From Ectocarpus siliculosus (Eukaryota; Sar; Phaeophyceae; Ectocarpales; Ectocarpaceae), in assembly GCA_000310025.1 (NCBI GenBank), contig FN649742.1, forward strand, positions 3,964,198 through 3,992,561: a stretch of 28,364 bases of DNA. The letters are read 5' to 3'. Each line of letters starts with the position of its first letter. The stretch's first letter is position 1. The notes beneath the pieces were generated by a model that was not told the origin of the DNA, did no database searches, and saw only the letters and a program-made list of their open reading frames with translations. Shown here in pieces: positions 6,831-22,612 of this stretch. Both the position numbers and the translations under genes were made by a program.

Positions 6831-9800
6831 GTGTGTGCGCGCGTAGCCTACATGTGTGTGCCTTTTGTACCTGGAATATATGTACTGCTGCTGTTGCCGG
6901 CGAACGAAAGTGCCAAAAAAGTGAGTATGCCTTGAGCATCGACTAAGTGCTGCCGTTGCCGGCGAACCAAGGGACGAATAAGTGAGAGTCTTTTGGGGCC
7001 TTTGGGGTGATGAAATAAATGGCTGCTGTACTGCTGTTGTTTGTCTTGTGGCGTCTTGCTTTACACACGAGAAATCATTCCTGCTCACGGTGTTGGGTGC
7101 CTTTACTGCCTGTTAACATTTTTCAACGATGAGGTTTTCATCTCCTGTAGGCATCACAAATGCGTGCTACAGCAGGACCACACCAAAGCGAAAGACAAGC
7201 CGCGGCAAACGAGCCTACAAAGAAAATGCCGTTGACAGCGTTTCTTGACAAGGTTAAAAACTCCTGGCTAGCTAGCGCAAACACCCCCAACCCGACCAAT
7301 CTTTACCGGTAGCAGTTGGCGAGCGGGGGGGGATCGTGTGCTCTATGCAAGGGCGTCGCAATCAAGCTGTGTCATTGAGGATGCTTGTCCTCACGTCTGC
7401 CGTGGGCATTATGCCAATTGCGAAAAAGAAAGATGACGCGAGGGGGGTTGTACTGAGGCGTGTTTGCTACAAGGACGGGATGCAACCTGGTATTCTAGCC
7501 CTCAGAAGTACGTAGGTTTTTAGTGAAAACGGTGAAAACAATTTCGTGAATTATGTACACTGCCCCCGCTAGGTTTTTGTTGGTCGCTTCGAGGTTGTAT
7601 AGCCCGCGTGTTTCTTTTGTAGTTCATCCTACCGTGTCGCTTTGGTGGTGGCGGTCTTGTAGCTGTTGGTAATTGCTATTCATAGCTTTGCCCCGCATGT
7701 CAATGGAGGTTGTTCATGTGGTCCTCGCTGTCGCTGCTTTGTGGTTCGTTGTCCGTCTTTGCATACCGAACATGGGTAAGTAGCGCGGGTATTCATGGTG
7801 ACAGGCTACACCCCACATGACACCCAAAATGAAAAATTGCCCACAAGACTATTCAGTCCTGCCACAACCCACAAAAGAAGAGAAAGGGAAATTAAAATTG
7901 ATTTTCCCCGTGGAGAGAGGTGGTGCCACCGTCCTGCGTTCGAGCGCACACACGCGCTTTGTAGTCGGTCGACGTGATCGAGTCTTGTTTGTTTCACAAG
8001 CTCATGTCAACCCTGGTTTCATCTCCTTGCTCGAGGTGAGTTTCAACAGTTCTGCTGACAGAGGTTCAGGACAAGGCACTTGCCTCTGCTTGGACGCCCG
8101 ACGGTGCTCCCAAACATACGCATCTGCCGTTTGCTCGCGAAGCAACAACAGCAACTCATCTTGGTATGGAGGTATCTCGACAGCAGTTGGCGGACAAGTC
8201 CTGCGTAGTTAGTTCATGCTTAGCCTCTACGCAGACACCGTCCCGTCTCACTGCCTCCGTTTTTTTGTTTCACCCGGAAATACCGCTGGTGCCTGGCAAA
8301 TCCCATCTCTCTGAGTTGTTGTCGCTCCCTCTCCGTTTCCCGCTCTCTCTCCCTATCCCCCTACTCCTCTCCCCTCTCCCTCTCCCTCTACTTGTCCCTC
8401 TGTATGGTAGGTGCGCGTGGTGAAGTCCGCCAAGGATCGGTCGTTCGAGGCTATCCGCACGTCGGTGGGGAAGATCCGAACCAAGATCAAGATCAACGAC
8501 TGGAACGGCATCCAGACCAACTTCGATGAGTGCAACAAGCACGTCGACAAGAGCAAGGTGTGTGTGTGCATTTTTTTTACTAATAGTATCGACCGCGCTA
8601 ACCGGCTGACCAATGAAAAGACGTCAGTCTCAGTGCGGTTGAAAACACAAAACACTTGTAATCCCATTAGCTGGGACCCCGTGAGGGGGCGGCATGGGTG
8701 TGTGTGTGTGTGTTTATTTACACCGACTGCGCTAACCGGTTGCCCAATGAAAAGCCGTTGAACGGGATATAACGCGAACACGCTGTCTAGGATACAGCTT
8801 CTACCGACAGGGTGGGCGCAGGAGTTGGACGACAGTATGTGCTGCTTCTGAAGTGATTGTGTGTGGGACCAAGAAAGGAATCGGTCAAGACTTTTTCGTC
8901 ACGGGGGGGAACGGGGGGTTAACGTCCGCTGTAGATACCACATGGAAGTAGCATAAGGCGTGTGGTTCCTTGGGACCGTCCCCCGGGAACCCCAGCCGCA
9001 CTTCGACAGGGTTCGTTATTTTCTTCCAAAGCACCAAATGGTTCGTCCCTTTTTTAAACGTACGCCTTGCTTTTCATCTACTGCTGTGTTTGGCGGGCGG
9101 CCTGCCCCTTTCTCTCCGCAGGTGATGATCGCCAAGGAAGGAGTACCGTCGTTCTACATCAAGCTGCTGGCCAACCTCGAGGACCTGCTGGCGGTGACCC
9201 TGAAGGACAAGCCTGCCATCAAGAAGATGAGCGCCACCAACACGCGCTCGCTCAACCGGATGAAGCTCCAGTTGCGGAAGCACAACAAGGGGTGAGAGCA
9301 CTTGTCCGTCCTTCCGTCAGTGCCTTTTTTTGTGTTGTGCGGTGCGCGTACGTAGGAATCCTCCGTGCTTTTAGAGGTGTATATATATTTTCGCTGGGTT
9401 GTATCTGTGCGTGTGGTGGATGGAAGCCTCTGCTGCAGCTGCTGCTGCTGCGCGATTCCTTCTATGTTGGTTGTTGTCATGTGATTTCGGTGCTGGTCTT
9501 GGCTGCTGCTCGTGGGTTCACATTGAACAGTGCTTCTGGAGCGCTGAACCCAGCCTATCTTCCCCACGGACTCTTGTGTGTGATGTCATAAACGGCTGGC
9601 TTGCGTTGTATCAAAACGTGTCGGGAAATTTGGCAAACCTTATTGGTCAAGACCGTAACTATGGGGGGGTACTGCTGTAGAGCGGTACATGAGAGGCAAA
9701 GACCTCCAACAAGAACTTGCTCAGGTACTAGGTATATTACCAGCGAGAAGGGAACGTTGTTTACGCGTACCCCCGTCCTGCCCCTCCGATTTCCTTAATA

Positions 9801-12685
9801 TCTCACGCTTTTGGCACACAAACCACGACGTTCACCCTCCCCCCCCCCCCCCTCCGATACCAGCGTCTTGCCTCCGCACCCCCGGTCATGATAATCATCC
9901 ACTGTCTCTCTGTCTCAAACCATCCCCAACACAACACCGCTCGATCGACTTGTTTCGTCTCTCGAAATGAACGTGTGCTCGCGCGCGTGCGCGAGCAGCT
10001 ACGAGAAAGAGATCGCCGACTTCCGGGCCAACCCCGACGCCTACGCGGAGGAATCTTCCTCCGAAGAGTCTTCTTCCTCCTCCGACTCGGACTCGGACTC
10101 TTCCTCTTCAGACGACGATGCCTCGTCGTCTGAGGAGGAATCGGACTCGGACTCTGACGGTGATGACAGCGACGCAGATGACTCTGACGACGACAGCGAC
10201 GCCTCTTCCGCCGCCGGCGGTGGGACCAGGGGCGTCGGAGAGGCCAAGGCCAGCAAGCCCGTCAAGACCCAGAAGGTGATGGAATGGATGCGGCTTTGGT
10301 TGGTGCTCTCTTCGTCTGTTGCTGGTGTGTGGATGGCGTGTGTTGTGGGTTGACGGGTGGTCAGGATTTTTGCTCGCGTTTTTGTGTGGATGGGGTCCGG
10401 GTGTGTCGTGGGTTGAGCCTTCGCGCTTTGCCGTCGATCGATGGCGCGCAGCAGTGGAATCGAACGTGCTTCTTGGGTGTGCAGGGAGAGCCGTGTGGGT
10501 GTGGAATGGCTTATTATATGTGGCACCGAACTTTCTCCGAGCTGTTGTTGGTCGGAAAGTCTGGCATGTGTTGATCGTGCGAGGGTGAGTGCTGATTTGT
10601 TTGGTGTCGCTGTCTCTGTATGAAGCAGGTGGTTTCTTTGCTGTTTGCGGCAGCGGTGACGATAAGCTAATTCCTCGTTTCCGACGCACCTCGCTGCAAA
10701 AGCGGGGCGCAAATGAGACCAAACGTTGCTTATCCAGCATTTCTGAGCTGTCGCGAATGAGTCTTCGTCTTGCGTCCGCGTTTTTTTTTTTGTTACCGAC
10801 ACCGCCGTTCCGTCGTTTTTTATAAGATCTCGTCCCCGTCGTACCGCACATACTAAAGGACAACAATGGCGGTTCGTTCCGAATCTTGTTTGTTGTCAGC
10901 ATAAGCAGCAGCAGTACCAATAGACTGGTTTTTGTTCCTCGACAACCGGCGGCATTGCCATTTGTGTTGTTTATTCCTCCGACCTCTGCACAACTACGAC
11001 TGGAAATTGACAGCTCGTTCCGTAAGATAGCGTACAAGTAGTAGTTATGTACTCCTCTCTCCTCTGTGGCAATAACCCCTCTTGGTCAATGCTCATCTCG
11101 ATGGCAACTGGCGAAAAACATGCACCATGTCCCGGCCTGGATTTTTTTTTCTACGCGACACGTCGCCCCCCACCTTCCTTCTCGTCCGCGAAAGCCGTGA
11201 AGATAAGCTAATTCCTCGTTTCCGACGTGCCTCGCTGCAAAAGCGGGGCGCAAATGAGACCAAACGTTGCTTATCCAGCATTTCTGAGCTGTCGCGTTCA
11301 AGTACCCAAAATCAATTCGCCAGGCTTTTTTTGTGTGTTTGGGGTATGTCGACGTGATGTTGCAGTACTACAACCACCACACGACGAGAAACGATTTGTA
11401 GAAGTAGCACGCACACGAATTACATAGTCTAGTCTAAACCGGCACCATTTTTTTTTTTTTCGCTGTAAAGACAATTAAAAAAGGAAAAAAATGATCGGAA
11501 GAACCTTGGCCACGGCCCCCGCACCCCCATTCAAGAAAAGAGCCGTGAAGACAAAGCAAATTCCTCGTTTCCGACACGTCTCGCTGCAAAGTGGGACGCG
11601 CGTGAGACCAAACATTTTGCTTATCCAGCATTTCTGAGCTTCAATATGGAGGGTTGTTGTTGTTGTTGTTGTTGCATCACACATGAGCGCGACGGATCGG
11701 TTTTCAACGAAAGCGAGGCCGACTCCAGGAACGGCCGGTAACGGTCACGCACACACACATCCCGGCGGTTGTCATGGTGTCAAAAAACGATACGCAAAAC
11801 ACCCCGCCGCAACCCGTATTTCAAACACATACTTGCACCTGCTCGCAGAAACGCGTTGTAGAACAAGCCTTTTGTTGGAGCGCTCCTACATAACCCCCTG
11901 AAAAAGGGAGTGTAACCCCCCCCCCTCCCCGGTGCGTCTTCGCGTCTTCGATCACGCCACCCATATTTCAGACACATGAAACTGCTCATAGAAACGTAGC
12001 CATACAGAGCAAGCCTACTGTTAGAGCTCTACTGCATACCCCCCTGAAGGAGTCCCCTCCCCCCTACGCCTTCGATCACGCCTCCTTAAACATGGCGCGA
12101 AACCGATGATACCAACCCGCAGAACCTTGAGGACATGGACTCGGACGACTGGTCCTCGGACTCGGACTCGGACTCGGATAGCGACGGCAGCGACGACGAC
12201 GGGGACATGCTCAAGGGCCGCGCGAAGTGGCTCAAGAAGACGGACGACACCTCGGACATCAAGAAGCGGAAGGACGAGAAGAGGGCGGCCAAGGTCGAGG
12301 ACGGCAAGAAGAAGAAGGACAAGGTGCGGGCGGGAAGAGGGCAGAGAGGGTGTTGTTTGGGATGGAGCCGTGGTCTGTCGGTGATGGGGTGTGGGAACTT
12401 TGTGAATAGGCCGGCCCGCGAGCGCTGATCCATGGGTAGGTGGATGGTGTGTCGTGGGTGCCTAGGAGCGAGCTGGGGTCTCCGTCAGGCGTTTGTGAAA
12501 AACATACATCGCGTGGTGCGCTCGTCTTTTTGGTTACCGAGGCTTTCGCTTTCGCCACGGCGGACCAGTGCGCTCCAGGACGCGGTGCCTAGACGTACAG
12601 ATGATAGTGGTTTGCGTTGCTGCCATTTTCTCGCTGGTGTAGCGGTTCTTCTGCCTCCTGTTGCCGGCGGTGTCGCCTCCTTGGT

Positions 12686-12748
<63 letters not shown>

Positions 12749-15700
12749 GATAACTGTTTCGTTCCTGTTGTGTCCGCGCGTGAGATGTAATGTTGTCCGG
12801 ACGTCGCCCCCCCCAAGGCACGTTTCGCGTTCCGCGTCGGTGGAAACAACGCTCGTTCTGTGACGGAGAGAGTTTTTGAACAAAAAAAAAAAGAAAAAGC
12901 AACGCGACACGACCATGTTGTGGACGGCGCTAGTTGCACGTTTTTCGGGGGATTGATTATTGATCGAAAATACAACAACCAACGGGACGTGACCACGTTC
13001 ATCGACGGCACTGGTTGTATCTCATGTGCTTTGCCACGGGACACTTTTTGGCCCCTCCCGTCCTCTTGAGTACGTGTGGTCAATGGTCTAACCGCTAAGG
13101 CATACAAAACGTGAGACTACCTCCCCCCCGCCCCCCGCCCCCCGCCCCCGGCGTGCCCGCCCCCTCTCTCGCTCTCTCGAGACCAGGCCGTCGTTACCGC
13201 CGGCAAGGAGAAGGGTGCGGCCCTCAAGCTGGACCTGGACATCTCGTCCGAGGAGCTGGAGAAGAAGCTGAGGGAGTGCCTCGCCAGCCGTGGCCGCAAG
13301 GCGACGGACCCGAAGGTGACGGGACGGGTCGGGACGGGACGACAAGCAATTTATGGAGAGAAATTTATTCCAAAATATATTTTTTTCCGTACCACGTCTG
13401 TTTAGGAAGTGGGTATGTTCGCGTTTGTCTGTGCCTGTGCTCGGTTCATGCTGAGGCGCGAGGGGTAGGATTGCACCACAGCAGCGCTAATGAGTTGGTG
13501 TCTTGTTCCTGTTTTGCCTGGCTCGTGCTACCCCTACCGCCCCACCCCGCTGGTTGTGCCAGTGCGACAAAAAGTCTGTTGCAGCAATCGCTGCTCCCCC
13601 TCGGTGCTCTGGTAGCTATCTACGATGGCGTTTTTGTGCCGATGGCGACGGCCATCTCCGGGCGTTTCAGCCCCCCCCCCTCCCACATGCACGAAACGCA
13701 CTGCGTTGGAGCTTCGTGTGTCACTTACGAGAGAGCAAAGCACTTTTCTCGCCACTTCCTTCGAGCCATGGTTCCCTATTATCGTGGCCAGCTACGTCTC
13801 TGCTACCACGCACACTCACACTAAGAAGCGTATGCAGGCGTTCGTTGATGAGAAGACTGCTCGTTTTGCGCTCTGTTTCGTTTGGGCTGCTCACAGGAAG
13901 TGCTCCGGCAGCTGAGCGTGCTGGCCTACATCGCCCGGCGGCTGGGCCCAGTCCGTGAGATCCCCATCATCATGTACCTCGTGTCGGCCATGTTCGACAC
14001 CCTGAGGAACATCGACGAGTTTATGGAGACGTCCATGTGGAAGAGCTGCAGGGAGTACATCAGCCGAGTGAGTTAGTTTGTAGCGTCCGTCCGACGAATG
14101 CATGATGGGAAGAGAGTGGGAGACCGAGGACAAATGACCCGCCCGATTGTCCAGCGGTCAAAGTGTCAGCGTTGCCCCGTAGATATCAACGCTGCCTACT
14201 TGCAACCAACGTGCATTTGCATACCACACGCTGGCATCCATGTGTATACACACACAAAGAAGTACTAAGTCGTGCACATTTTTTGCACGGAGATACTTGC
14301 CGTCGGAACATGTCATACCGTCAACTTTCGGAGATCTCGAGACCACTGCCGACAAACCTGTGACTCTTGTGCAGTCGTTTGTTTTGCCTCTCTCGCTGGT
14401 GTTGGGCGTGTAGGTTTGCGGAACGCGGTCGACCCGCTCTCTCCTCTTGGCCTGTCTCCTTGCCTTGAAACCCTCTCGGAAAACAAAACCTTCCTCTTTC
14501 TCTCAGCAGCGGGTCAAAAGCCACCGCGACCTTTTGGCAGGCACCGTTGACTTTACCACGTCGTCCTACAGTCAGTGGCGGGATCCTTGAGTAGTAGGGT
14601 GCTTCTTCCCTCACGCTTGAAGAAAGCTCGGAGTTATTAACAATGGTGGATGCTTTTTTTTTTTTTTTGCTGCTACCGACGAATGACGACGCACGGCAGG
14701 TGGCGGACCTCCTCGAGTCCCGCCCCGAGCTCACGCTCGGGCAGATGGGCAACGAGGTCGTGGCCGACTTGATCCAGGCTGGCACCGGCGTCGACGTGGA
14801 CGAATCAGAGGTTAGTTTCGTCTTGAACAAGTTTATCTTCGTTTGTATTCCCAAGAGCAAGGGGCCCGTTTTTAGTGTGCCGCGTGCAAAAGGGTACCGC
14901 GCTTATGTGGAAGGTCGTGAACGTCTGTCTTGGTAAGTTATACCACTTCTGTTCGGAAATACAAGGGCCATTCGGATACAAATGTGATTATTCCAACGGT
15001 CCCTATATATCCGAACAGAGAGTAAATACCACAGAAATATAAGGAACTTTCGGATACACATGTGATTATCCCAATGGTCCCTGTATTTTCGAACAGAGTG
15101 CTATCTATCTACAACTGTAAATGAACGCTATAAGAGACCCACGATTGGGGTTGGGGAGAGGAGAGGGCAAAGAGTATGTTTTGGTCGTCGGTGTGTGCCG
15201 ATAGATTCCCGGGTCGCGGCTGCGACTCCCGATGCTCCTAGTTCGTGGCCGTGCGTGCCAGGACGCCTTTCTCGTTCGTTCCTCCGACGACGTTAAGCAG
15301 TTTCCATTGACAGGCCGCGTCGCGTTTCTGCGGTCGACCCTCAAAAATCCTCTCGAGACGGGTAGCTTATACCAGTACAGCAGTATGCTTGAGTACTGTC
15401 TGTTTAACGGTTGGCACGCTGAATACTGTCTGTAGAGCACGGGTAGATAGAAATGTGATGCTGGCCTTCTACAACAGAGAGAGGAAGAATGTTTCACTGC
15501 TGGGTGTGTCGACCTCAAACGGCGGAAAGTGAAAATGGTTGTTCATTTAGTTGTACAGGGTGTGTAAAATACTGATGTGTACCCCCCCCCCCCCCCCCCN
15601 NNNNNNNNNNNNNNNNNNNNNNNNNNNNNNNNNNNNNNNNNNNNNNNNNNNNNNNNNNNNNNNNNNNNNNNNNNNNNNNNNNNNNNNNNNNNNNNNNNNA

Positions 15701-18700
15701 CCCCCCGTGTTTTTTTTTTGGGGCCCGGGGGGCCCGAGCCCCTTTTTTTTTTTTTTCTCCCAAGGAGTTTAAACATTTCCAATAACAGGGCGGGTGGGGT
15801 TTTTGGGGGTCCCCCCTAAAAAACCCTCCGGGGGGGGGGGGTTTTCCCCCCCCCCCCATTTGGTTGGATTCCTTTTTTTTTAAGGGTGGCCCCGGGAAAA
15901 CTTTTTTTAAGACCCGGGGAAAAAAAAAAGGGGAGGCGGCCTTTTAAAAAAAAAGAGGGAAAAAATTTTTCCCGGGGGGGGGGGGGCCCCCCAAAGGGGG
16001 AAAAGGAAAAAGGTTTTTTCTTTTTTTTTCCCGGGGGGGTAAAAAATTGGGGGGGCCCCCCCCCCCCCCCCCCCCCCCCCAATATTTCGAAGGTGGCCGA
16101 TGTTCTCGCCGAGGTGGAGAAGACGGGTGTCCTAAAGGTGGTCGGGTCCCTGTCGCAGTACATGATCCGCCTGGGCGACGAGTACACCAAGTCCCTGCAG
16201 AACATCAACCCGCACACGCAGGAGTACATCCGGCGGCTGAAGGACGAGTCCGTGGTGGTGGACCTGGCCGCCAAGGTGCAGGCGTACTACGAGCGCCAGG
16301 GGGAGATGAGCGTCGTGGCGGATCTCGCCCTCCTGCAGGTGTGTGCTTGTGTGTGTCTTTTTTGTTAGCATCGACCGCGCTAGCCGGCTGACCAATGAAA
16401 AGGCGTCAGTCTCAGTGCGGTTGAAAACACAAAGTGCTTCTAAAGGCCATGTGTGTGTTCGGGGAGTGTTTTTTTTTTTTTTGGCGTGGGTTGGTGTTGT
16501 GGCCGCCGATGGGGCCGTTGTGCGAGAGGGTGAAGCGGGTCTTCTCACAAATTTTGTCGATGCGCTGAACGGCGACTGGTTGAAGTAGAAGAAGCGGTCG
16601 CCTGTGTGTGTTGCGCTTCTTCCACGTTGCTGCTGTTTTTGTTGTCGAAATCCTCTCGTGAAGCTTCCTCTGTTGTGGTTGTTGTTGCACTCAAGACTTC
16701 TCGGAAAGACACCTCACGGTGCTTCGCGCTTGATGATGTGAGAGCCTGCTCCAGTGAGAGCCCGGCGTGCTCCGTCCCGGCTTTGTAGGGATGCGAGGTC
16801 ATTGGTCTAACGGCTACGGCATGCACGATACACACCCCATTTGACGCCCTTCTCCTCACCCACCCCATTCGCCGACCGCCCTCGAAACTCTCGACGCAGG
16901 CCGAGCACCTGTACTACCAGCACGAGTCCATCGCCCGCGCGGTGCACAAGGCGCAGTCGTTCACCAACAAGTTCGGGAAGACGGAGGACCTTCACCCGGC
17001 CTGCACGGTCGCCTCGGCCTCCGCCCCCTCCGACGGCGCCCTCGACGTGACCAAGGCCCACCCCGGGGCGTTCCTCGGACAGCCGTCTGTGGACCATGAA
17101 TACGTGCGTTTGTTTCCCCCGTCGTCGTCTGTGTTTTGTTGTGTCCTCGTCGGTAACGTCGTTTTTGGCGTGCGTTTACGTTTCTTTGGTCTTTTTGAGC
17201 TTCAAATTTGTTCACGGCGGACATGATCATTTGGTAGTTTTTGTTTTTATTCGAAAGATAACGTTTTTTTCCGTCCGGCTTGCTTGCTGTTGCGCCATGA
17301 ATACGTGCGTTTCCCCTTGTCTTGTCTCTCTCTCTCTCTCTCTGTATGGGTTGAATAGCATTTTTTTTTTTAGCTGTTTAAGTTTATTGACGGTGTTGTA
17401 GAGACAAAAGAGCTTACGATGATGGATTTTCGAAACATGCGATTTTTGTCGTGTGTTTTGTTGTTGTTGTTGTTGGCGTCGATGTTCCGTGTTGCGTCAC
17501 CAAGGGCCACGACCCTCTTGAGTAGCCCACCCACACGCCTCGCCCGCGTCCGCCTTTTTTTTTTTTCCGATTTTTTGTCGTCCGTTTCGTTTGTCGCCAC
17601 TACTTGACATGCTTCCTGGGCAAACCCTTGATCCCTGTACCCCTTGACCGCTGTTGCTGCTGCTACACAGGCGGACTACACGGAGCAGCTCAAGAACCTG
17701 TGCGTGACCGTCTACCAGCACGGCGACGATCGCTGCCGCACGCGCGCCATGCTCTGCCACATCACCCACCACGCGCTCCACGACCGCTTCCACCCGGCCC
17801 GGGACCTGCTGCTGATGAGCCACCTGCAGGACAACATCAGCCAGGCGGACATCTCGACGCAGATCCTCTACAACCGGATGATGGTGACGCTGGGACTGTG
17901 CGCGTTCCGCAAGGGGCTCATCCACGACGCGCACGACTGCCTGAGGGACGTCTGCTCCTCGAGGGTCAAGGAACTGCTGGCTCAGGGCGTGCAGATGAAC
18001 CGGTTCCAGGTGAGAGAGATGATGCGACGGAGGTGGCTTGGGCGCGCGGGGGGGGTGGGGGGGGGGGGGCGTAGAATTCGTTTTTTGTTTCGCGTTGTTG
18101 TCGTCGTCGTGCTTCAGTTGAAGAGGTTGGGGGCACCGTGCCTCGGAATTGGTCGTTTTTAAAATCGAAATGTTGTTGTTTGTAACCGTTCTTCACGGCC
18201 TTGATTCCCCTCGATCCGAGTTGCTTCATCTAGGAGGTACTACACAAGAGAAGTACAAGCACCGGACCCCCCCTCACCCCATTAACGTGCGCCGTAGGCG
18301 CCCGGCCCGGCCCGGCCCGGCCCGGCCCCTTTCGTTGAGCAAGCAACCCCTGCTCGATGACTCTGACAGCGCCTCTCGTTTCGTTATTTGCGGTAATAAT
18401 GTTTGGGACTTAAAAAAAAAAAAACGTGCAGGACAAGAACCCTGAGCAGGAGAAGGCCGAGCGCCGAAGGCAGACTCCGTACCACATGCACATCAACCTC
18501 GACCTCCTTGAGTGCTGCCACCTCACGAGCGCCATGCTCCTGGAGGTGCCGAACATGGCGCAGGAGTCGACGGAGCTGCGCCGGCGGGTCATGTCCAAGC
18601 ACTTCCGCCGCTACATAGACATCTTTAACCGCCAGGTATTTTGTTTTATGGTGTTCTCGCTCTCCATTTTGGTCTTGAGTATTATTGGGGGCATGTGTTG

Positions 18701-21700
18701 TTGTTGTTGTTGTGGTTGTCTTCACATTAAAAACCGTTCCCGTCTCCGCTCAGTACCTTCTAATGTCCGTACATGTGTAGCCTGCGGTTTTGATTGGCGT
18801 ATTTGGCGTATTTTATATCACTACTGCTGTACGCTGTTAGCTTTTCCTTCTCGGGTATGTTCCTGGTACTGTATTCATACCCGGTGTGGATCATCCTCTA
18901 GTGAGTGATACGCCAACATACCCCCCCCCCCTGCCGTGAAAAGGTGTTCACTGGCCCCCCGGAGAACATCCGCGACCACGTGATCGCCGCCGCCAAGAGG
19001 TTGATGGAGGGCGACTGGAAGCGCTGCTCAGACCTCATCCTGGGGTAAGTAAAGCACTTTCTTGCGCTGCCGGCGTTTCTTCTTTTTTCCTCCTCCTGTT
19101 GTCTTTTCCCTTACACACGTTCTCACCTGGAAGACCCTGTTTCCCGGTGCGCTGCCTCTCAGAGTGAATCCGTTCCGTAAAGGTTTTGCGCGTTTCGTGT
19201 AAGCAGCGGGGTACTTGCCCTGTAACACCAGACCTAGTTTGTGTTTATCGTCACTATTTTTACGGAGCAGGGGTTGTGCCGATACTGGCTATTAATAGGG
19301 GGCACATTTGTCGTGGCTCCGTGTGTCGCGTGTTGCTGCTGCTGGTGTTGTGTGTCGCACACAATAGTTTAAATTCGCGTTGGGTCCGATGTTACCTCAC
19401 GGGATGTTTTCTCGTGTCTGTCTTTTCTTCGTTTTGCACTCGAAAGGAAAGCTTTCGTTTTTTTCCGACGCGTTCATCTCTCCGCTCCGAGCCACGTGTT
19501 TGTGGATTGGTCCTACGTTGACTTGCCGTATGCATAGGAAAGCTGTGTACATATACATGCCCAAGACGGCGCCGGTGATCTTAACTCAAGCTTAGTACCA
19601 TGCCGCGTCTGCGAATCGTTGTTATGTGTTGTCTTCCCGTGTCGGTCGAAACCTTTTTCCTCTTTCGTGCAGGCTGGACGTCTGGAACCTGATCCCCGGG
19701 GAAGGCTGCGCCGAGCTCGTCAAGGTTATGGTGAAGGAGAAGATCCAGGTAACCACACGCCGCCGTACTTCGTACAACACGGCCTGCCCGCATTTTTTGG
19801 GACGCGTCTCTATTCGTACTCTAATAGCGTGGGCGGATGGTGAAGGTGATTTTGTGACGGTGCCTGTGGCGATGGGTGTAGTGATGGGTCGTCTCTCTGG
19901 CATCGATTGGCGAGTGTCGCCGGTGCTCTGCATCGGCCGATATCGGCTACAGGATGCATGAAATAACAGCCCCATGTGGCGACTCTGTTGTTCCCCCGGA
20001 AGTTGTTACCGCTACCCTGCAATACGCCCCTATGGTAACCAACCAACCCTCTCCCCGAAATTCAAAACCAAACGAATCGTCTGGTCACCCGTCGACAGGT
20101 GGAGGCTCTGCGCACGTACCTCTTCACGTACTCGCCGCACTACGAGTCGCTCAGCCTGCCGACGCTGTGCGAGATGTTCGACATGCAGAAGAGCAAGGCC
20201 CACTCCATCATCAGCAAGATGATGCTCAGCCACGAGCTGTACGGCAGCTGGGACCAGCCCACGGAGACCGTGGTGCTTCGGAAGGAGGACCCGAACACTC
20301 TCCAGCTGCTGGCGCTCAAGTTCGCCGATAAGGTAGATGCACAGCACATATTTTTTTTTCGTCTTTTTTCGTTTTCGCACGTTGTTGTTTCGATTTTTCC
20401 ATCGCATTTTTGAACAATCCGTTGGCCTTCCCAGCCGCGTGATGGCCTCGGTCCTCTTACTGGACTACTGCCGATCCGGGGCATGGTGTGTCTTTCAGAA
20501 GAAGACCTCCTGCGCGGTTCATGCATGCATGCCTCTCGTGTCATTGACGTTGTGTCGTCTTTGTCGCGCTTAAGACGGCGAATTTCGTGGTGCAGACGAT
20601 GAGCCGACAGCGGACATGCGCCATGCCATTGAGAAATCCGCGAAAAACCAGCTCCAGGAAGGGTGGTTGTAGGTCTCGTAGCCCTTGACCACCAGTGTAG
20701 TCACGCGATCGGATCTCATTGGACCATTGTTGCTTTTTTTAGTGTCATAAGGCTTGCCGGCTTGCAAGTCAGCAAGGTGTAGCCGGTGTCGTTCACTCTC
20801 TGTTGTTCCAATTTGGGTGTTGAGCTTCTGATGTTGTTGAGACTCGTTCGAGAGTTAGGTATTAATAGGTACACTTGGAGAACCCGATCGCGAGGATGGC
20901 AAACTAATATGATATAATGAGCCTGAACAAATCGTGTGGCCAAATTCTAGCTGAGTGATCGGTTCTGCGCTTGAAAGTGTACCGCTGCTGCTTGTAGCCT
21001 ACCCGCCCCCCGCGCCGCCCCCCTATTTTTATTTTACCCTTGACAAATCGTAACATTGTCGTTGTCGGCTATCTGTCTTCAGACATGTTTACATCGTACG
21101 CAGTAAGCTCACGCTGGAAGAAAAGCAAATGGAGGTTATCCTGTGACTTTTTTTTTCATAGTCGGACGAGGCTTGTTGGCATGTGTACGAGAGAGACTGC
21201 ATGGTACCGATCACGAGGATGGCAATATGATATAATGAGCCTGAATAAATCGTGTGGCCCAACTCTAGCTGAGTGATCGGTTACTACCGCGTCCTTTCCG
21301 CCGGCCGTCTCGATTCCTTTGTTTTTGCAGTGTAAGCTGTTCGATGGAATTGTTTGGACCTGAGCTCTAAAAGCGTGTGTTTGTTGTTCACCTATCGGAC
21401 TGGCAGCGGCTTCCTTGAACAAGCAGTCTACCTCGACACACGCGCATTCGGGTTGCTTTGCTCGCTCTTGTGTTCGTTCTCTTATGGTCCTCGGTTGTAT
21501 TGGTGGCGTGTAAGTGCCGCGTAACGTTGCACACTCCGGCCCGCTAAGAGAATGGCAAAACCTATTTGTTGAGCCTTAAGAATCGGGTGGTCCTAGCTGT
21601 CGCTGGTGAGGGTGCCCCCTCCCCCCCTCCCGTGTGCTATCTTTTATTAGTTCGCACTGCCACGTCATTAACTCAACTGCGTATTCATGCAAGCACGATA

Positions 21701-22612
21701 ACCAAGTTTCCCCCCCCGCTCGGTGTTTGCCATCGGGATTGGGTTTTCATCGCTTAGCAACGACGTTGTAAAACAAGCCAATTCACTTCGTGAACTCGGC
21801 AACCAGGTTACCGTTTTTTTTTTTTTTTACGTCGGTTTTTTTTTTGGCGGTAACCATAATGGTGGTCGAGTAGATCATGTTGTGCGGGGTCGAGAACCCT
21901 CACCCCGCGCAACGGGGGATGATCGCACCACGTTGTGTTAATATTGGTCAAGCACCCTCGAGGCAGTTAAACAGTGCTTACAACTGTCTCTGGAAGTGAA
22001 AGCACCAGAAAATAAATTAAGTCATACGCAGCTGTCATCCGTACGCAAGGAAGTAAGCACAAAATGCCGAACACCCTTAGCAGGATGCAGCTCACCCTTC
22101 ATGCGACTCGCCAAATACCTCACGGTGCTTCGCGCTTGGTGATGTGAGAGCCTGGTCCGGTGAGAACCCGGCGTGCTCCGTCCCGGCTTTGTAGGGATGC
22201 GAGGTCAATGGTCCAATGACTACGGCATGCACGACTATGAGTACACCCCCCCTCCCCTACTGCTGCGGTTCATTTCACGCCACAGGCGGCGAATCTCGTG
22301 GAGAGCAACGAGCGGCTCATCGACGCGAGGACCGGGGCCTACGGCTACCGAGACGACGGAGGCCGTGGCGGCGGACGTGGCGGCGGCCGGGGGGGCGGCG
22401 GGCGCGGGGACAGCAGCAGGGGCGGCAGGGACGGCGGCGGGCGCGGCAGCGGTGACTGGGGAGGGGGCCGAGGGTACAACCGCCCGGGGCAGACGGCGAA
22501 CAACCGTTATCAGGGGGGGCAAGGGGGGCGCGGAAGAGGCGGCTACGGCGGCAGGGGGGCCGGGAACTACATCCGTGAGAGGCGCGATATGGGCGTCGGG
22601 CCGCGCCGTTGA
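6678..22612 (+). CDS. eIF3c: Eukaryotic translation initiation factor 3 subunit c, complete 16-exon gene
   Basis: eIF3c is a core PCI subunit of eIF3. It binds the 40S subunit and, through its N-terminus, eIF1 and eIF5 during start-codon selection in the cytoplasm. Exons: 6678-6830, 8411-8557, 9122-9291, 9999-10275, 12123-12323, 13187-13315, 13897-14067, 14700-14810, 16093-16338, 16900-17103, 17671-18009, 18432-18635, 18944-19044, 19673-19748, 20099-20332, 22286-22612. They total 3090 nt and keep one frame for 1029 residues, longer than animal (about 910) and yeast (about 810) proteins. Diagnostic blocks include KSAKDRSF (56-63), the Ser/Asp-rich region (about 170-275), [75 protein letters not shown] and a C-terminal RGG tail. 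All introns are GT-AG, and 13 of 15 are phase 0. Splice sites were placed by family alignment from memory and frame continuity, not by transcripts. Confidence 0.97.
6831..8410 (+). other. eIF3c intron 1
   Basis: 1580 nt. Apart from the duplication near its start, it ends in a strong CT-rich tract (8315-8400) before the acceptor ggtag. A GTGATGA box-C-like string at 7007 has no CTGA partner at suitable distance. Confidence 0.9.
6888..6986 (+). repeat. Imperfect direct duplication in intron 1
   Basis: Two units of about 38-40 bp (6888-6925 and 6947-6986) share GCTG..GTTGCCGGCGAAC and end in AAGTGAG. Each end resembles a 5' splice site, so this is a duplicated cryptic-donor-like segment close to the real donor. 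Confidence 0.6.
8411..8557 (+). CDS. eIF3c: eIF3c exon 2
   Basis: Residues 52-100. Encodes [16 protein letters not shown]... and ...[18 protein letters not shown], the conserved helical block that follows the acidic N-terminus in all eIF3c proteins. Phase 0 at both ends; donor AAG|gtgtgt. Confidence 0.96.
8558..8662 (+). repeat. Element shared by the 5' ends of introns 2 and 9, copy in intron 2
   Basis: Begins at the donor with (GT)n and a T run, then CGACCGCGCTAACCGGCTGA, CCAATGAAAAG, GTCAGTCTCAGTGCGGTTGA and AAACACAAA. The match to 16339-16443 starts at the splice site in both introns; the core begins 32 nt from this donor and 33 nt from the other. ATCGACCGC can pair with GCGGTTGA. Read on the minus strand it contains TTGGTCAGCCGGTTAGCGC, closely resembling a tRNA D arm/box A, and ends in A-rich plus (CA)n, like a SINE tail. 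Confidence 0.85.
8697..8757 (+). repeat. Third, diverged copy of the same element inside intron 2
   Basis: (GT)n followed by TTTATTTACACCGACTGCGC, TAACCGGTTGCCCAATGAAAAGC. The same order of GT tract, T-rich stretch and core is present, so the GT tract belongs to the element. Confidence 0.75.
9122..9291 (+). CDS. eIF3c: eIF3c exon 3
   Basis: Residues 101-156 plus two bases. Encodes [20 protein letters not shown]... and ...[13 protein letters not shown], aligning with the animal block KEGVPRFYIRILADLED...RQKIRKYNR. Acceptor tctctccgcag; donor AAGGG|gtgaga, phase 2. Confidence 0.96.
9292..9998 (+). other. eIF3c intron 3
   Basis: 707 nt, with GCTGCT repeats near 9430 and a C run at about 9839-9852. 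No feature beyond the NAGNAG-type acceptor at its end. Confidence 0.9.
9999..10275 (+). CDS. eIF3c: eIF3c exon 4 (acidic Ser/Asp-rich)
   Basis: Residues 157-249. Starts [15 protein letters not shown], then about 60 residues of Ser, Asp and Glu, ending [10 protein letters not shown]. It matches the position of the acidic linker after the first conserved block in other eIF3c proteins. The acceptor is GAGCAG, a NAGNAG type, so an extra Ser codon may be included. Phase 2 in, phase 0 out. Confidence 0.94.
10646..10755 (+). ncRNA. Box C/D snoRNA candidate, copy 1
   Basis: Terminal stem TGCGGCAGC/GCTGTCGCG (9 pairs with two wobbles), box C GTGACGA (10656-10662), D' CCGA (10681-10684), internal stem CTCGC/GCGGGG capped by TGCAAAA, C' ATGAGAC (10713-10719) and box D CTGA (10743-10746). 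The 11 nt AATTCCTCGTT (10669-10679) just before D' are complementary to AACGAGGAATT, a universally conserved SSU rRNA segment. A second antisense stretch (about 10723-10742) precedes D; its target is unknown. The expected role would be guiding rRNA 2'-O-methylation by fibrillarin in the nucleolus. The C box departs from RTGATGA at position 5. Confidence 0.68.
11187..11296 (+). ncRNA. Box C/D snoRNA candidate, copy 2
   Basis: Same 110-nt length and box order as copy 1: box C GTGAAGA (11197-11203), D' CCGA, C' ATGAGAC, box D CTGA (11284-11287). The terminal stem is CGCGAAAGC/GCTGTCGCG, with one mismatch; its 5' strand differs from copy 1 yet still pairs. The internal stem is GCCTCGC/GCGGGGC (seven pairs). 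Both antisense elements are identical to copy 1. Box C A5 can pair with U of box D, making this arguably the best-formed copy. Confidence 0.7.
11540..11641 (+). ncRNA. Box C/D snoRNA candidate, copy 3 (diverged)
   Basis: 102 nt with box C GTGAAGA (11545-11551), D' CCGA, C' GTGAGAC and box D CTGA (11634-11637). The internal stem has changed on both sides to GTCTCGC/GTGGGAC and still pairs with wobbles, a compensatory pattern. AATTCCTCGTTTCCGA and TTGCTTATCCAGCATTTCTGA are unchanged. The terminal stem is short (GAGC/GCTT), so this copy may be less stable or decaying. Confidence 0.6.
11815..12085 (+). repeat. Diverged tandem duplication, two units of about 146 and 125 bp
   Basis: Unit 1 (11815-11960) and unit 2 (11961-12085) share ATATTTCA.ACACAT, CTGCTC.(C/T)AGAAACG, CAAGCCT..TGTT.GAGC, CCCCTGAA and TTCGATCACGCC in the same order. 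They lie just upstream of the exon-5 acceptor and have no visible coding potential. Confidence 0.7.
12123..12323 (+). CDS. eIF3c: eIF3c exon 5 (second acidic tract, then Lys-rich)
   Basis: Residues 250-316. [19 protein letters not shown] followed by [16 protein letters not shown]-type sequence and a Lys/Glu-rich helix ending [11 protein letters not shown]. This parallels the 'RFLKK...KK.DRKSKR' segment of animal eIF3c. Phase 0 at both ends. Confidence 0.94.
12691..12746 (+). repeat. (CT)28 microsatellite
   Basis: 56 nt of uninterrupted CT in intron 5. Likely length-polymorphic. Confidence 0.97.
13076..13105 (+). repeat. tRNA-D-arm-like segment near the 3' end of intron 5
   Basis: GTGGTCAATGGTCTAACCGC followed by TAAGGCATAC resembles the corresponding part of the introns 9/15 element (GGTCATTGGTCTAACGGCTA, then CGGCATGC). 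It includes CTAAC, a plausible branch point. Confidence 0.5.
13187..13315 (+). CDS. eIF3c: eIF3c exon 6
   Basis: Residues 317-359. [18 protein letters not shown]... then [20 protein letters not shown], aligning with the 'VVIKKLNEILQARGKKGTDR' block. Phase 0 at both ends; donor AAG|gtgacg. Confidence 0.95.
13316..13896 (+). other. eIF3c intron 6
   Basis: 581 nt; no distinct element seen beyond a C run at about 13672-13681. Confidence 0.9.
13897..14067 (+). CDS. eIF3c: eIF3c exon 7
   Basis: Residues 360-416. [18 protein letters not shown]..., [19 protein letters not shown] and [11 protein letters not shown] match the conserved 'L..L..A......V.I...I..LYD...........W..C' helices of the eIF3c core. 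Phase 0 at both ends; donor CGA|gtgagt. Confidence 0.96.
14068..14699 (+). other. eIF3c intron 7
   Basis: 632 nt. Contains a tRNA-like stretch with an 8-bp hairpin (14141-14195) and a T run shortly before the acceptor. Confidence 0.9.
14141..14195 (+). repeat. tRNA-like 5'-half with hairpin
   Basis: GCCCGATTGTCCAGCGGTCA, then an exact 8-bp stem CAGCGTTG/CAACGCTG with a 12-nt loop. It resembles the 5' part and anticodon stem of a tRNA, but there is no T arm (GTTCGA) downstream, so it is not a functional tRNA gene. Possibly SINE-derived. Confidence 0.4.
14700..14810 (+). CDS. eIF3c: eIF3c exon 8
   Basis: Residues 417-453. [19 protein letters not shown]... ending [10 protein letters not shown]. 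This is the variable acidic stretch before the 'VxG.L......D.E' block. Phase 0 at both ends; donor GAG|gttagt. Confidence 0.93.
14949..15096 (+). mobile_element. MITE-like double inverted-repeat element
   Basis: Outer ends CTGTTCGGAAATACAAGGG and CCCTGTATTTTCGAACAG are near-perfect inverted repeats. The element is two head-to-tail units (14949-15018 and about 15031-15096), each itself a hairpin, with shared cores ATGTGATTAT.CCAA.GGTCC. No coding capacity; a target-site duplication was not clear. This suggests a non-autonomous DNA transposon or a nested pair. Confidence 0.65.
15582..16080. other. Low-quality homopolymer sequence around the gap
   Basis: Almost every base is in a run: C18 before the gap, T, G and A runs after it, C25 at 16056-16080. 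The pattern is of inflated homopolymers at a contig end rather than biology. Frames through it are not meaningful. Confidence 0.8.
15600..15699. other. Assembly gap (100 N)
   Basis: Exactly 100 N, so the size is probably a placeholder rather than a measured length. Confidence 0.99.
16093..16338 (+). CDS. eIF3c: eIF3c exon 9
   Basis: Residues 454-535. [20 protein letters not shown], then [24 protein letters not shown] and [18 protein letters not shown], a highly diagnostic eIF3c block. Phase 0 at both ends. The acceptor (atttcgaag) sits next to the low-quality stretch, so its first bases are less certain than the rest. Confidence 0.95.
16339..16443 (+). repeat. Element shared by the 5' ends of introns 2 and 9, copy in intron 9
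   Basis: Starts at the donor as GT repeats and a T run, then CGACCGCGCTAGCCGGCTGA, CCAATGAAAAG, GTCAGTCTCAGTGCGGTTGA and AAACACAAA. The core differs from the intron-2 copy at only a few positions, suggesting recent common origin or gene conversion. Confidence 0.85.
16711..16827 (+). repeat. 117-bp element shared by introns 9 and 15, copy in intron 9
   Basis: Matches 22117-22233 at about 90% with no length difference. Landmarks: ACCTCACGGTGCTTCGCGCT, GGCGTGCTCCGTCCCGGC, GTAGGGATGCGAGGTCA and TACGGCATGCACGA. TGGTCTAACGG fits the tRNA box A consensus and contains CTAAC. It ends 73 nt before the acceptor. Confidence 0.85.
16900..17103 (+). CDS. eIF3c: eIF3c exon 10
   Basis: Residues 536-603. 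[20 protein letters not shown] matches the 'lr.LY.hH' helix; the following [12 protein letters not shown]... ...[11 protein letters not shown] is a variable linker. Phase 0 at both ends; donor TAC|gtgcgt, duplicated 201 nt downstream. Confidence 0.94.
17094..17312 (+). repeat. 18-bp direct repeat spanning the exon 10 donor
   Basis: CCATGAATACGTGCGTTT occurs at 17094-17111, across the exon/intron boundary, and again at 17295-17312 inside intron 10. The second copy supplies an identical donor; reading to it would meet an in-frame TGA near 17224. Confidence 0.9.
17104..17670 (+). other. eIF3c intron 10
   Basis: 567 nt, T-rich, with CT and GTT repeats and a clear acceptor (gctacacag). Carries the duplicated donor segment. 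Confidence 0.9.
17671..18009 (+). CDS. eIF3c: eIF3c exon 11
   Basis: Residues 604-716, the longest internal exon. [58 protein letters not shown] and KELLAQGVQ are the most conserved eIF3c segment, the helical repeats leading into the PCI module. Phase 0 at both ends; donor CAG|gtgaga. Confidence 0.98.
18010..18431 (+). other. eIF3c intron 11
   Basis: 422 nt with G runs (about 18049-18069), a CCCGG pentamer repeat at about 18300-18328 and an A run immediately before the acceptor cgtgcag. Confidence 0.9.
18300..18328 (+). repeat. (CCCGG)n pentamer repeat
   Basis: Five to six copies of a CCCGG unit within intron 11. Confidence 0.9.
18432..18635 (+). CDS. eIF3c: eIF3c exon 12
   Basis: Residues 717-784. 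[40 protein letters not shown] and [19 protein letters not shown] match the family block 'QE..QEK.ERRRQ.P.H.HINLELLE' closely. Phase 0 at both ends; donor CAG|gtattt. Confidence 0.98.
18636..18943 (+). other. eIF3c intron 12
   Basis: 308 nt, the shortest intron. Its 3' end is unusual: a C run and ctgccgtgaaaag before the exon, a weak pyrimidine tract next to the AG. Confidence 0.88.
18944..19044 (+). CDS. eIF3c: eIF3c exon 13
   Basis: Residues 785-817 plus two bases. [34 protein letters not shown] matches 'GPPE..R.HV.AA..A...GDW..C'. Phase 0 in, phase 2 out; donor GGG|gtaagt. Confidence 0.97.
19045..19672 (+). other. eIF3c intron 13
   Basis: 628 nt, no distinct element recognised; good acceptor (ctctttcgtgcag). 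Confidence 0.9.
19673..19748 (+). CDS. eIF3c: eIF3c exon 14
   Basis: Residues 818-843. [25 protein letters not shown], matching 'VWDLFP.AD.V..ML..KIQ'. Only 76 nt, phase 2 in and phase 0 out, and required to link exons 13 and 15. Confidence 0.96.
19749..20098 (+). other. eIF3c intron 14
   Basis: 350 nt; several GATGGG/GTGATGGG motifs around 19855-19890 but no complete snoRNA box set. Confidence 0.9.
20099..20332 (+). CDS. eIF3c: eIF3c exon 15 (PCI/winged helix)
   Basis: Residues 844-921. [40 protein letters not shown] and [15 protein letters not shown] are the winged-helix half of the PCI domain, which mediates packing against other eIF3 PCI subunits. Phase 0 at both ends; donor AAG|gtagat. 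Confidence 0.98.
20884..20962 (+). repeat. Short inverted-repeat element, copy 1
   Basis: 79 nt, ends CCGATC/GATCGG, about 90% identical to 21207-21280 apart from a short indel. Shared core: CGAGGATGGCAA, ATATGATATAATGAGCCTGA, AAATCGTGTGGCC, TCTAGCTGAGTGATCGG. Non-coding. MITE-like; two CTGA boxes make a snoRNA-like reading conceivable, but no proper box C adjoins the stem. Confidence 0.7.
21207..21280 (+). repeat. Short inverted-repeat element, copy 2
   Basis: 74 nt with exact 8-bp ends CCGATCAC/GTGATCGG. The tRNA-like size is coincidental: no D, anticodon or T stems form on either strand. Confidence 0.7.
22117..22233 (+). repeat. 117-bp element shared by introns 9 and 15, copy in intron 15
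   Basis: Ends 53 nt before the exon 16 acceptor. Compared with the intron-9 copy, the TGGTCTAACGG segment reads TGGTCCAATGA, so the box-A-like motif is weaker here. Confidence 0.85.
22286..22612 (+). CDS. eIF3c: eIF3c exon 16 with Arg/Gly-rich tail and stop
   Basis: Residues 922-1029. [20 protein letters not shown] aligns with 'LVE.NE...D...G.YG', the last conserved element. It is followed by about 75 residues rich in RGG/GGR with interspersed GYN, RYQ and GNY, ending VGPRR and TGA. RGG tails typically bind RNA and are arginine-methylated; that role here is inference. Confidence 0.96.
   Translation, partial: AANLVESNERLIDARTGAYGYRDDGGRGGGRGGGRGGGGRGDSSRGGRDGGGRGSGDWGGGRGYNRPGQTANNRYQGGQGGRGRGGYGGRGAGNYIRERRDMGVGPRR

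Follow-up and report, generated by a model that had tools for sequence, protein, structure and literature searches.

Three copies of a box C/D snoRNA-like gene with a predicted 18S rRNA target in one intron of the Ectocarpus eIF3c gene

In yeast, the 18S rRNA modification Gm1572 is made by snR57 and Am100 is made by snR51, according to the accessible part of PMC5199042, which also states the box D+5 rule for locating a methylated nucleotide from its guide. The snR57 target is written as G1570, not G1572, in the corresponding passage of PMC4633970, and the portion of PMC8307265 available to us lists Gm1572 as more than 85% modified, at the E site, and without the mark 'H', which we take to stand for human. 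SNORD57 is assigned to SSU-A99 in the excerpted text of PMC10911272. Clusters of snoRNAs within introns are described in plants (rice), as cited in the accessible part of PMC2656528. In Ectocarpus itself, the snoRNA loci that CDseeker and ACAseeker predicted in a small-RNA study amount to 88,311 bp in all (PMC4513859, available in part), and the units described below may therefore already be in that prediction list. Among the matches listed in our literature search, which reached few subscription journals, none dealt with brown-algal C/D snoRNAs or with snoRNAs of eIF3c.

Here, we describe three direct repeats, u1, u2 and u3, in a 28,364-nucleotide window of the Ectocarpus siliculosus genome (contig FN649742.1, positions 3,964,198 to 3,992,561); coordinates below are those of the window, and all features lie on its + strand. 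The explanation that best accounts for the locus as a whole is that u1-u3 are box C/D snoRNA genes repeating a single guide, with a predicted target at the 18S rRNA equivalent of yeast Gm1572, and we put the probability of this reading at roughly 0.87. Box order, stems, an internal hairpin and an 18S antisense match in register all favor the initial annotation's proposal that an eIF3c intron carries box C/D snoRNA genes, and the 18S target is an addition to that annotation, which named none. The units are real, functional-looking, fresh members of an established snoRNA class: what is unusual is their arrangement, whereas the type of gene is ordinary and no novel machinery is implied.

All three units lie on the sense strand of a single predicted phase-0 GT...AG intron of the eIF3c gene (10276..12122; 1,847 nt), where they had been placed from the start and where we find them as direct repeats. 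The putative splice sites at 10276 and 12122 were positioned through the frame continuity of the flanking ORFs together with splice motifs. The identity of the host gene comes from PF05470, which matches five of the eight ORFs tested near the units; these five include the exon directly 5' of the host intron, with a score under the Pfam cut-off, and the exon directly 3' had no PF05470 match in the same Pfam profile test of eight ORFs. Further downstream, the gene encodes a PCI domain at 20039-20410. When the genome was searched at the DNA level with one unit as query (E<=10), the three candidates scored were u1, u2 and u3 themselves; since only these three copies were found, we reject a dispersed repeat, with the caveat that such counts are lower bounds.

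Each unit presents the same order of elements: terminal stem, box C, D' guide AATTCCTCGTTT, box D', internal hairpin, C'-like box, an invariant stretch, box D, and the closing strand of the stem. In u1 (10646..10755), delimited by direct repeat, boxes and stem scan, the 5' stem strand GCGGCAGC (10647..10654, partner strand 10747-10754) is followed by box C (10656..10662), the D' guide (10669..10680), box D' (10681..10684), a folded hairpin in the D'-C' interval (10686..10710), the C'-like box (10714..10720), the invariant stretch defined by alignment of the copies (10726..10742), and box D (10743..10746). Unit u2 (11187..11296), delimited by direct repeat, boxes and hairpin fold, has its terminal stem at 11188-11195 with 11288-11295, box C at 11197-11203, the D' guide at 11210-11221, D' at 11222-11225, the hairpin at 11227-11251, the C'-like box at 11255-11261 and D at 11284-11287. 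Unit u3 (11540..11641), delimited by direct repeat, boxes, stem scan and hairpin fold, has box C at 11545-11551, the D' guide at 11559-11570, D' at 11571-11574, the hairpin at 11576-11599, the C'-like box at 11603-11609 and D at 11634-11637.

Box D is CTGA in all three units, box D' is CCGA in all three, with one mismatch to CUGA, and the C'-like box is TGAGACC throughout, a poor match to the box C' consensus. The eukaryotic box C consensus is RUGAUGA, from which each copy deviates once (GTGACGA in u1, GTGAAGA in both u2 and u3). Boxes C, D', C' and D follow one another as originally described, and their spacing likewise fits a C/D snoRNA; box C, however, is not invariant, with u1 differing at one position.

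We scanned the window in both orientations for the pattern [AG]TGANGA...CTGA (45-120 nt), requiring a stem of at least 4 bp at a distance of 0-2 nt from the boxes. The + strand gave two matches, u1 and u3, and the - strand gave none; we attribute the failure to recover u2 to an A.G mismatch in its stem. This pattern alone is not decisive, since 200 shuffled windows (one strand each) yielded 90 candidates and 19 of the 200 contained two or more. Its combination with an antisense match is stronger: both real matches pair with the organism's own 18S rRNA, and only one of the 90 shuffled candidates does so as well. Rfam gave no match to a unit, and no family match anywhere in the window, at gathering score, which speaks against the snoRNA reading. 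A permissive Rfam search of 10000-12400 returned seven matches, of which the best on a unit was the C/D family snoR126 for u3 (23.2 bits against a threshold of 39, E 0.35; subthreshold); such matches mean little, because others with snoRNA names (sR33, Afu_513) fall in exon sequence. As to snR57 by descent, no Rfam family was matched at gathering score, and none of the seven permissive matches is named snR57.

Differences between the copies avoid the guides and boxes. Of the 94 columns compared between u2 and u3, 15 carry differences, all of them outside the 46 box and guide columns (P 1.2e-5), and between u1 and u3 a single one of the 16 differences falls in features (P 1.1e-4); u1 and u2 differ at three positions, one of them in box C (P 0.52), and this pair is uninformative. 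The feature columns were chosen after inspection of the alignment, and u1 closely resembles u2, so that these column tests are not independent. The earlier statement that boxes and antisense stretches are invariant while loops drift needs correcting in one point, the difference in box C of u1. Flanking sequence beyond the units mostly scores no higher than shuffles do; the two exceptions, both weak and both on the 3' side, score 22 and 24 (means near 17), which 4/200 and 0/200 shuffles matched.

The internal hairpin folds in all three units (z -3.39, -4.35 and -4.46). Folds of the whole units give z -2.84 for u1, -3.34 for u2 and -1.83 for u3, where 12 of 200 shuffles were as good; u2 folds well on its antisense strand too (z -2.25), and for u1 and u2 the fold of minimum free energy, a long hairpin joining GATAAGC with GCTTATC, would bury part of box C and of the D guide. 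Terminal stems are present in every copy, with at least 12 paired positions including G-U in u1 (the scan stops at 12), eight positions including the A.G mismatch in u2, and 4 bp in u3. The stem changes quoted between u1 and u2 are one-sided, a G-U to A-U change that keeps the pair and a C-G to A.G change that breaks it, and we counted one terminal-stem double change, C-G in u1 versus G-U in u3. The hairpin, too, had been described as rebuilt by changes on both sides, yet the quoted CTCGC/GCGGGG versus CTCGC/GTGGGA alters the 3' strand only; the true double change is in the neighboring pair, C-G to U-A. When we scored covariation over 16 pairs in the three sequences, 89.4% of cells were paired, which 76 of 500 shuffles equaled, and the two double changes were reached in 208 of 500. 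Because neither measure rises above shuffles, we soften the view that the locus bears the signature of selected RNA structure: the proof from covariation was overstated and is not significant, whereas the hairpin itself is firm.

The D' guide AATTCCTCGTTT, 12 nt long and adjoining box D', pairs with GAACGAGGAATT of the organism's own 18S rRNA through 11 Watson-Crick pairs and one G-U pair in all three units. This is the best antisense match of every unit to its own rDNA locus, with a score of 13.2 against next-best scores of 12.5 (u1) and 11.7 (u2 and u3). Counting by the D'+5 rule points at the G in GAAC-G-AGG, within 18S GAACGAGG near the 18S 3' end. This G precedes the m7G1575 position by three nucleotides and the bracketed C in CACACCG[C] by 67; we take that C to be yeast position 1639, and the letters found at the offsets of Gm1572, Arabidopsis A1579 and m7G1575 agree with that placement. 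Yeast Gm1572 and Cm1639 are likewise 67 apart in the accessible parts of PMC5199042 and PMC8307265. We predict with good confidence that the D' guide targets 18S rRNA at the equivalent of Gm1572, the snR57 site.

Register matters to how this match should be read. With shuffled 20-nt guides kept in place next to the box, 7 of 3000 trials attained a score of 13.2; a bare antisense match is not rare, because 216 of 2000 shuffled whole units reached that score somewhere in the 725-nt 18S fragment when no register was required. Six yeast ribose-methylation sites in the table of PMC5199042, as far as it was available, fall inside this fragment of ~725 nt, so that an arbitrary site would land on one of them with a chance of ~0.8%. 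By chance, an 11-nt match of the D' guide (score 13.0) occurs in a non-rRNA part of a viral contig (L016:8148-8158), and inspection of two other genomic places with a box C and the D' guide (L017, L018) revealed no convincing snoRNA. In u1 and u2, GATAAGCTAATTCCTCG, from the 5' part of the guide region, pairs with foreign LSU rRNA (L009:2791-2807) at 16 of 17 positions including one G-U, scoring 15.2, above the 18S match; we set this candidate aside, as the stretch does not abut D', the rRNA is foreign, and the letters of u3 differ. The matched LSU place is presumably a variable region.

The 18S sequence used here is a 3' fragment, a 725-nt match in L006 (G000:C28:1-7200), a stretch of 7200 bases around the fragment of which 5000 are N. 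Neither the 5' end of 18S nor an LSU 3' landmark turned up in a search of the genome assembly, and a foreign LSU query gave nine short matches on eight contigs other than L006, scattered pieces that are perhaps rDNA-derived insertions. Among bacterial MAG and IMG/VR contigs, L007, L008, L009 and L016 carry eukaryotic rRNA matches and are probably contamination or misclassified records; eukaryotic 18S 5' sequence sought in viral contigs gave no match.

The stretch 5' of box D, which contains TTGCTTATCCAGCATTT and ends in TTATCCAGCATTT, is invariant in all three copies and probably serves a second target or an extra pairing. Together with the imperfect D' box, this invariance would suit an alternative in which u1-u3 are C/D snoRNA genes whose D' guide is idle, or acts on the neighboring A, while the box D guide does the main work at another target. 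For action on the neighboring A there is a parallel in Arabidopsis, where A1579 (SnoR8) lies 66 nt before C1645 (U43) and is thus the adjacent nucleotide (PMC8053127, accessible in part). We consider this alternative improbable, since the pairing of the D' guide with the organism's own 18S is in register for the G. No convincing target of the D guide was found in the own 18S 3' fragment, in foreign 5.8S/LSU or in LSU fragments; an 8-nt match in foreign LSU L009 (AAATGCTG) was rejected as too short. An exact genome search for the 12-nt D target, which excluded G-U pairs and used an assembly in which most of the rRNA was not found, returned nine places, three of them the units, and the six elsewhere, which have no Rfam match at gathering score, likewise speak against a main role for the D guide.

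Two further alternatives set the snoRNA assignment itself aside or deprive most copies of activity. Intragenic miRNA loci of Ectocarpus are mainly intronic and nearly all on the host strand, as reported in the available text of PMC4513859, and u1 and u2 fold better than shuffles, as the hairpins of microRNA precursors in an intron might. We nonetheless reject such precursors on the predicted fold and hold them to be the least probable of the readings considered: the hairpins are interrupted by internal loops of several nucleotides on both sides and offer no near-perfect 21-nt duplex, and conservation sits in the C/D boxes and guides. A near-perfect 21-nt duplex within one hairpin is the criterion for brown-algal miRNA precursors. 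The short stem of u3, the mismatched stem of u2 and flanks scoring close to shuffles outside the two weak 3' exceptions would instead be expected of relics, either once-functional snoRNA copies or a decaying small local repeat with at most one active copy. That the boxes and guides are kept while the remainder varies, and that all three units retain the internal hairpin, makes relics very improbable as well.

Taking u1-u3 as box C/D snoRNA genes, and starting from the boxes, stems, conservation pattern, antisense match and register that we computed from the sequence, we propose a model for their processing, protein binding and methylation activity. Trimming of the spliced eIF3c intron, or of a precursor, back to the terminal stem and box C/D k-turn would yield the three RNAs, which would then associate with fibrillarin and the other core C/D proteins. 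In the assembled particle, AATTCCTCGTTT 5' of D' would pair with GAACGAGGAATT near the 18S 3' end, and the paired guide would direct 2'-O-methylation of the G in GAAC-G-AGG, the putative equivalent of yeast Gm1572.

A repeat search of the window also uncovered a companion C/D-like pair, v1 (20884..20962) and v2 (21207..21280), whose presence in this gene region is a further point in favor of the snoRNA reading of u1-u3. Their position downstream of the PCI exon makes it likely that they, too, lie in an eIF3c intron, upstream of a presumed last exon in which a family search found no match. The terminal stems are CCGATCGC/GTGATCGG in v1 and CCGATCAC/GTGATCGG in v2, that is, CCGATC[G/A]C/GTGATCGG, and guide plus box read TGATATAATGAGC-CTGA. 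In v1 the guide TGATATAATGAGC occupies 20910-20922, D' CTGA 20923-20926 and D CTGA 20951-20954; in v2 the guide lies at 21228-21240, D' at 21241-21244 and D at 21269-21272. No canonical box C follows the terminal stem, where both copies read GAGGATGG. In an Rfam search of 20700-22400 with E up to 5, the sole match was SNORD57 on the guide and box of v1 (18.5 bits versus 47, E 1.4), and v2 had no match of its own. The 17 letters of guide plus box in v1, identical in v2, differ from the SNORD57 model by one base, and this single difference would fit an 18S reading of TTATATC in place of TTAAATC. At the SNORD57 target segment, TTATATC is presumably the stramenopile reading. The segment complementary to the v1/v2 guide is GCTC-A-TTATATCA, with the A as candidate target. 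In addition, the stretch 5' of box D in v2 pairs over 11 nt with the own 18S (TGGGCCGCACG; score 14.2, compared with 11.7 for v1), outside the D+5 register because the pairing ends 7 nt from the box; this is either extra pairing or chance.

The window contains other repeats and one irregular stretch. A 118-nt pair (16711-16828 and 22117-22234), 93% identical and apparently in two introns of the eIF3c gene, was rejected as a structured RNA, its fold being no better than shuffles. A 78-nt pair (8584-8661 and 16366-16443), 91% identical, forms one strong hairpin (z -4.23 and -2.28) followed by ACA; it could represent an H/ACA-like RNA with one hairpin, or else a genomic repeat, and judging by eye from translations there may be part of a third copy near 8680-8760. 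Low-complexity runs surround 100 N at 15600-15699, and 15500-16100, immediately upstream of an eIF3c exon, looks like a stretch of poor assembly. A tRNA search of the window found none.

The locus pairs a guide with a target in a way open to testing, at an 18S site with methylation in yeast and, in the available part of PMC8307265, no mark for human; the adjacent nucleotide is methylated in Arabidopsis (PMC8053127, likewise accessible in part). It also suggests a multi-copy intronic organization of snoRNAs in a lineage on which there was little snoRNA work among the matches listed. The eIF3c protein binds the 40S subunit. It is conceivable, though in our estimation unlikely, that in this lineage eIF3c has turned into a dedicated host of small-subunit guides, whose two introns would supply the Gm1572 site with three copies and the Am100 site with two, that copy number sets 18S methylation in step with initiation-factor output, and that the invariant box D guide leads to a second, lineage-specific modification. 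In yeast, a multicopy plasmid carrying SNR51, along with SNR70 and SNR41, raised A100 methylation, as described in the accessible part of PMC3938493, and duplicated guides could therefore matter for the level of modification.

How new is the arrangement? The triplicated guide in eIF3c had been presented as undescribed, and it is indeed unusual, but the available text of PMC2656528 supplies precedents in the plant clusters and in Plasmodium PFS15/PFS16. Like u1-u3, PFS15 and PFS16 are more than one C/D gene in one intron with one shared target; they differ in being two copies in an intron of ribosomal protein S27a, compared with three in eIF3c here. The companion pair invites comparison with SNORD57 and yeast snR51, from which it differs in that only v1 matches, below threshold, and in having its guide at D' and a non-canonical box C. 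Arabidopsis SnoR8 targets A1579, the adjacent nucleotide of the same 18S rRNA segment (PMC8053127, in the part available), whereas the register of u1-u3 points at the G one nucleotide upstream. With yeast snR57, the units have in common the predicted target nucleotide, 18S Gm1572; the Rfam searches showed no sequence homology to it, and in the units the guide lies at D' and three copies share one eIF3c intron.
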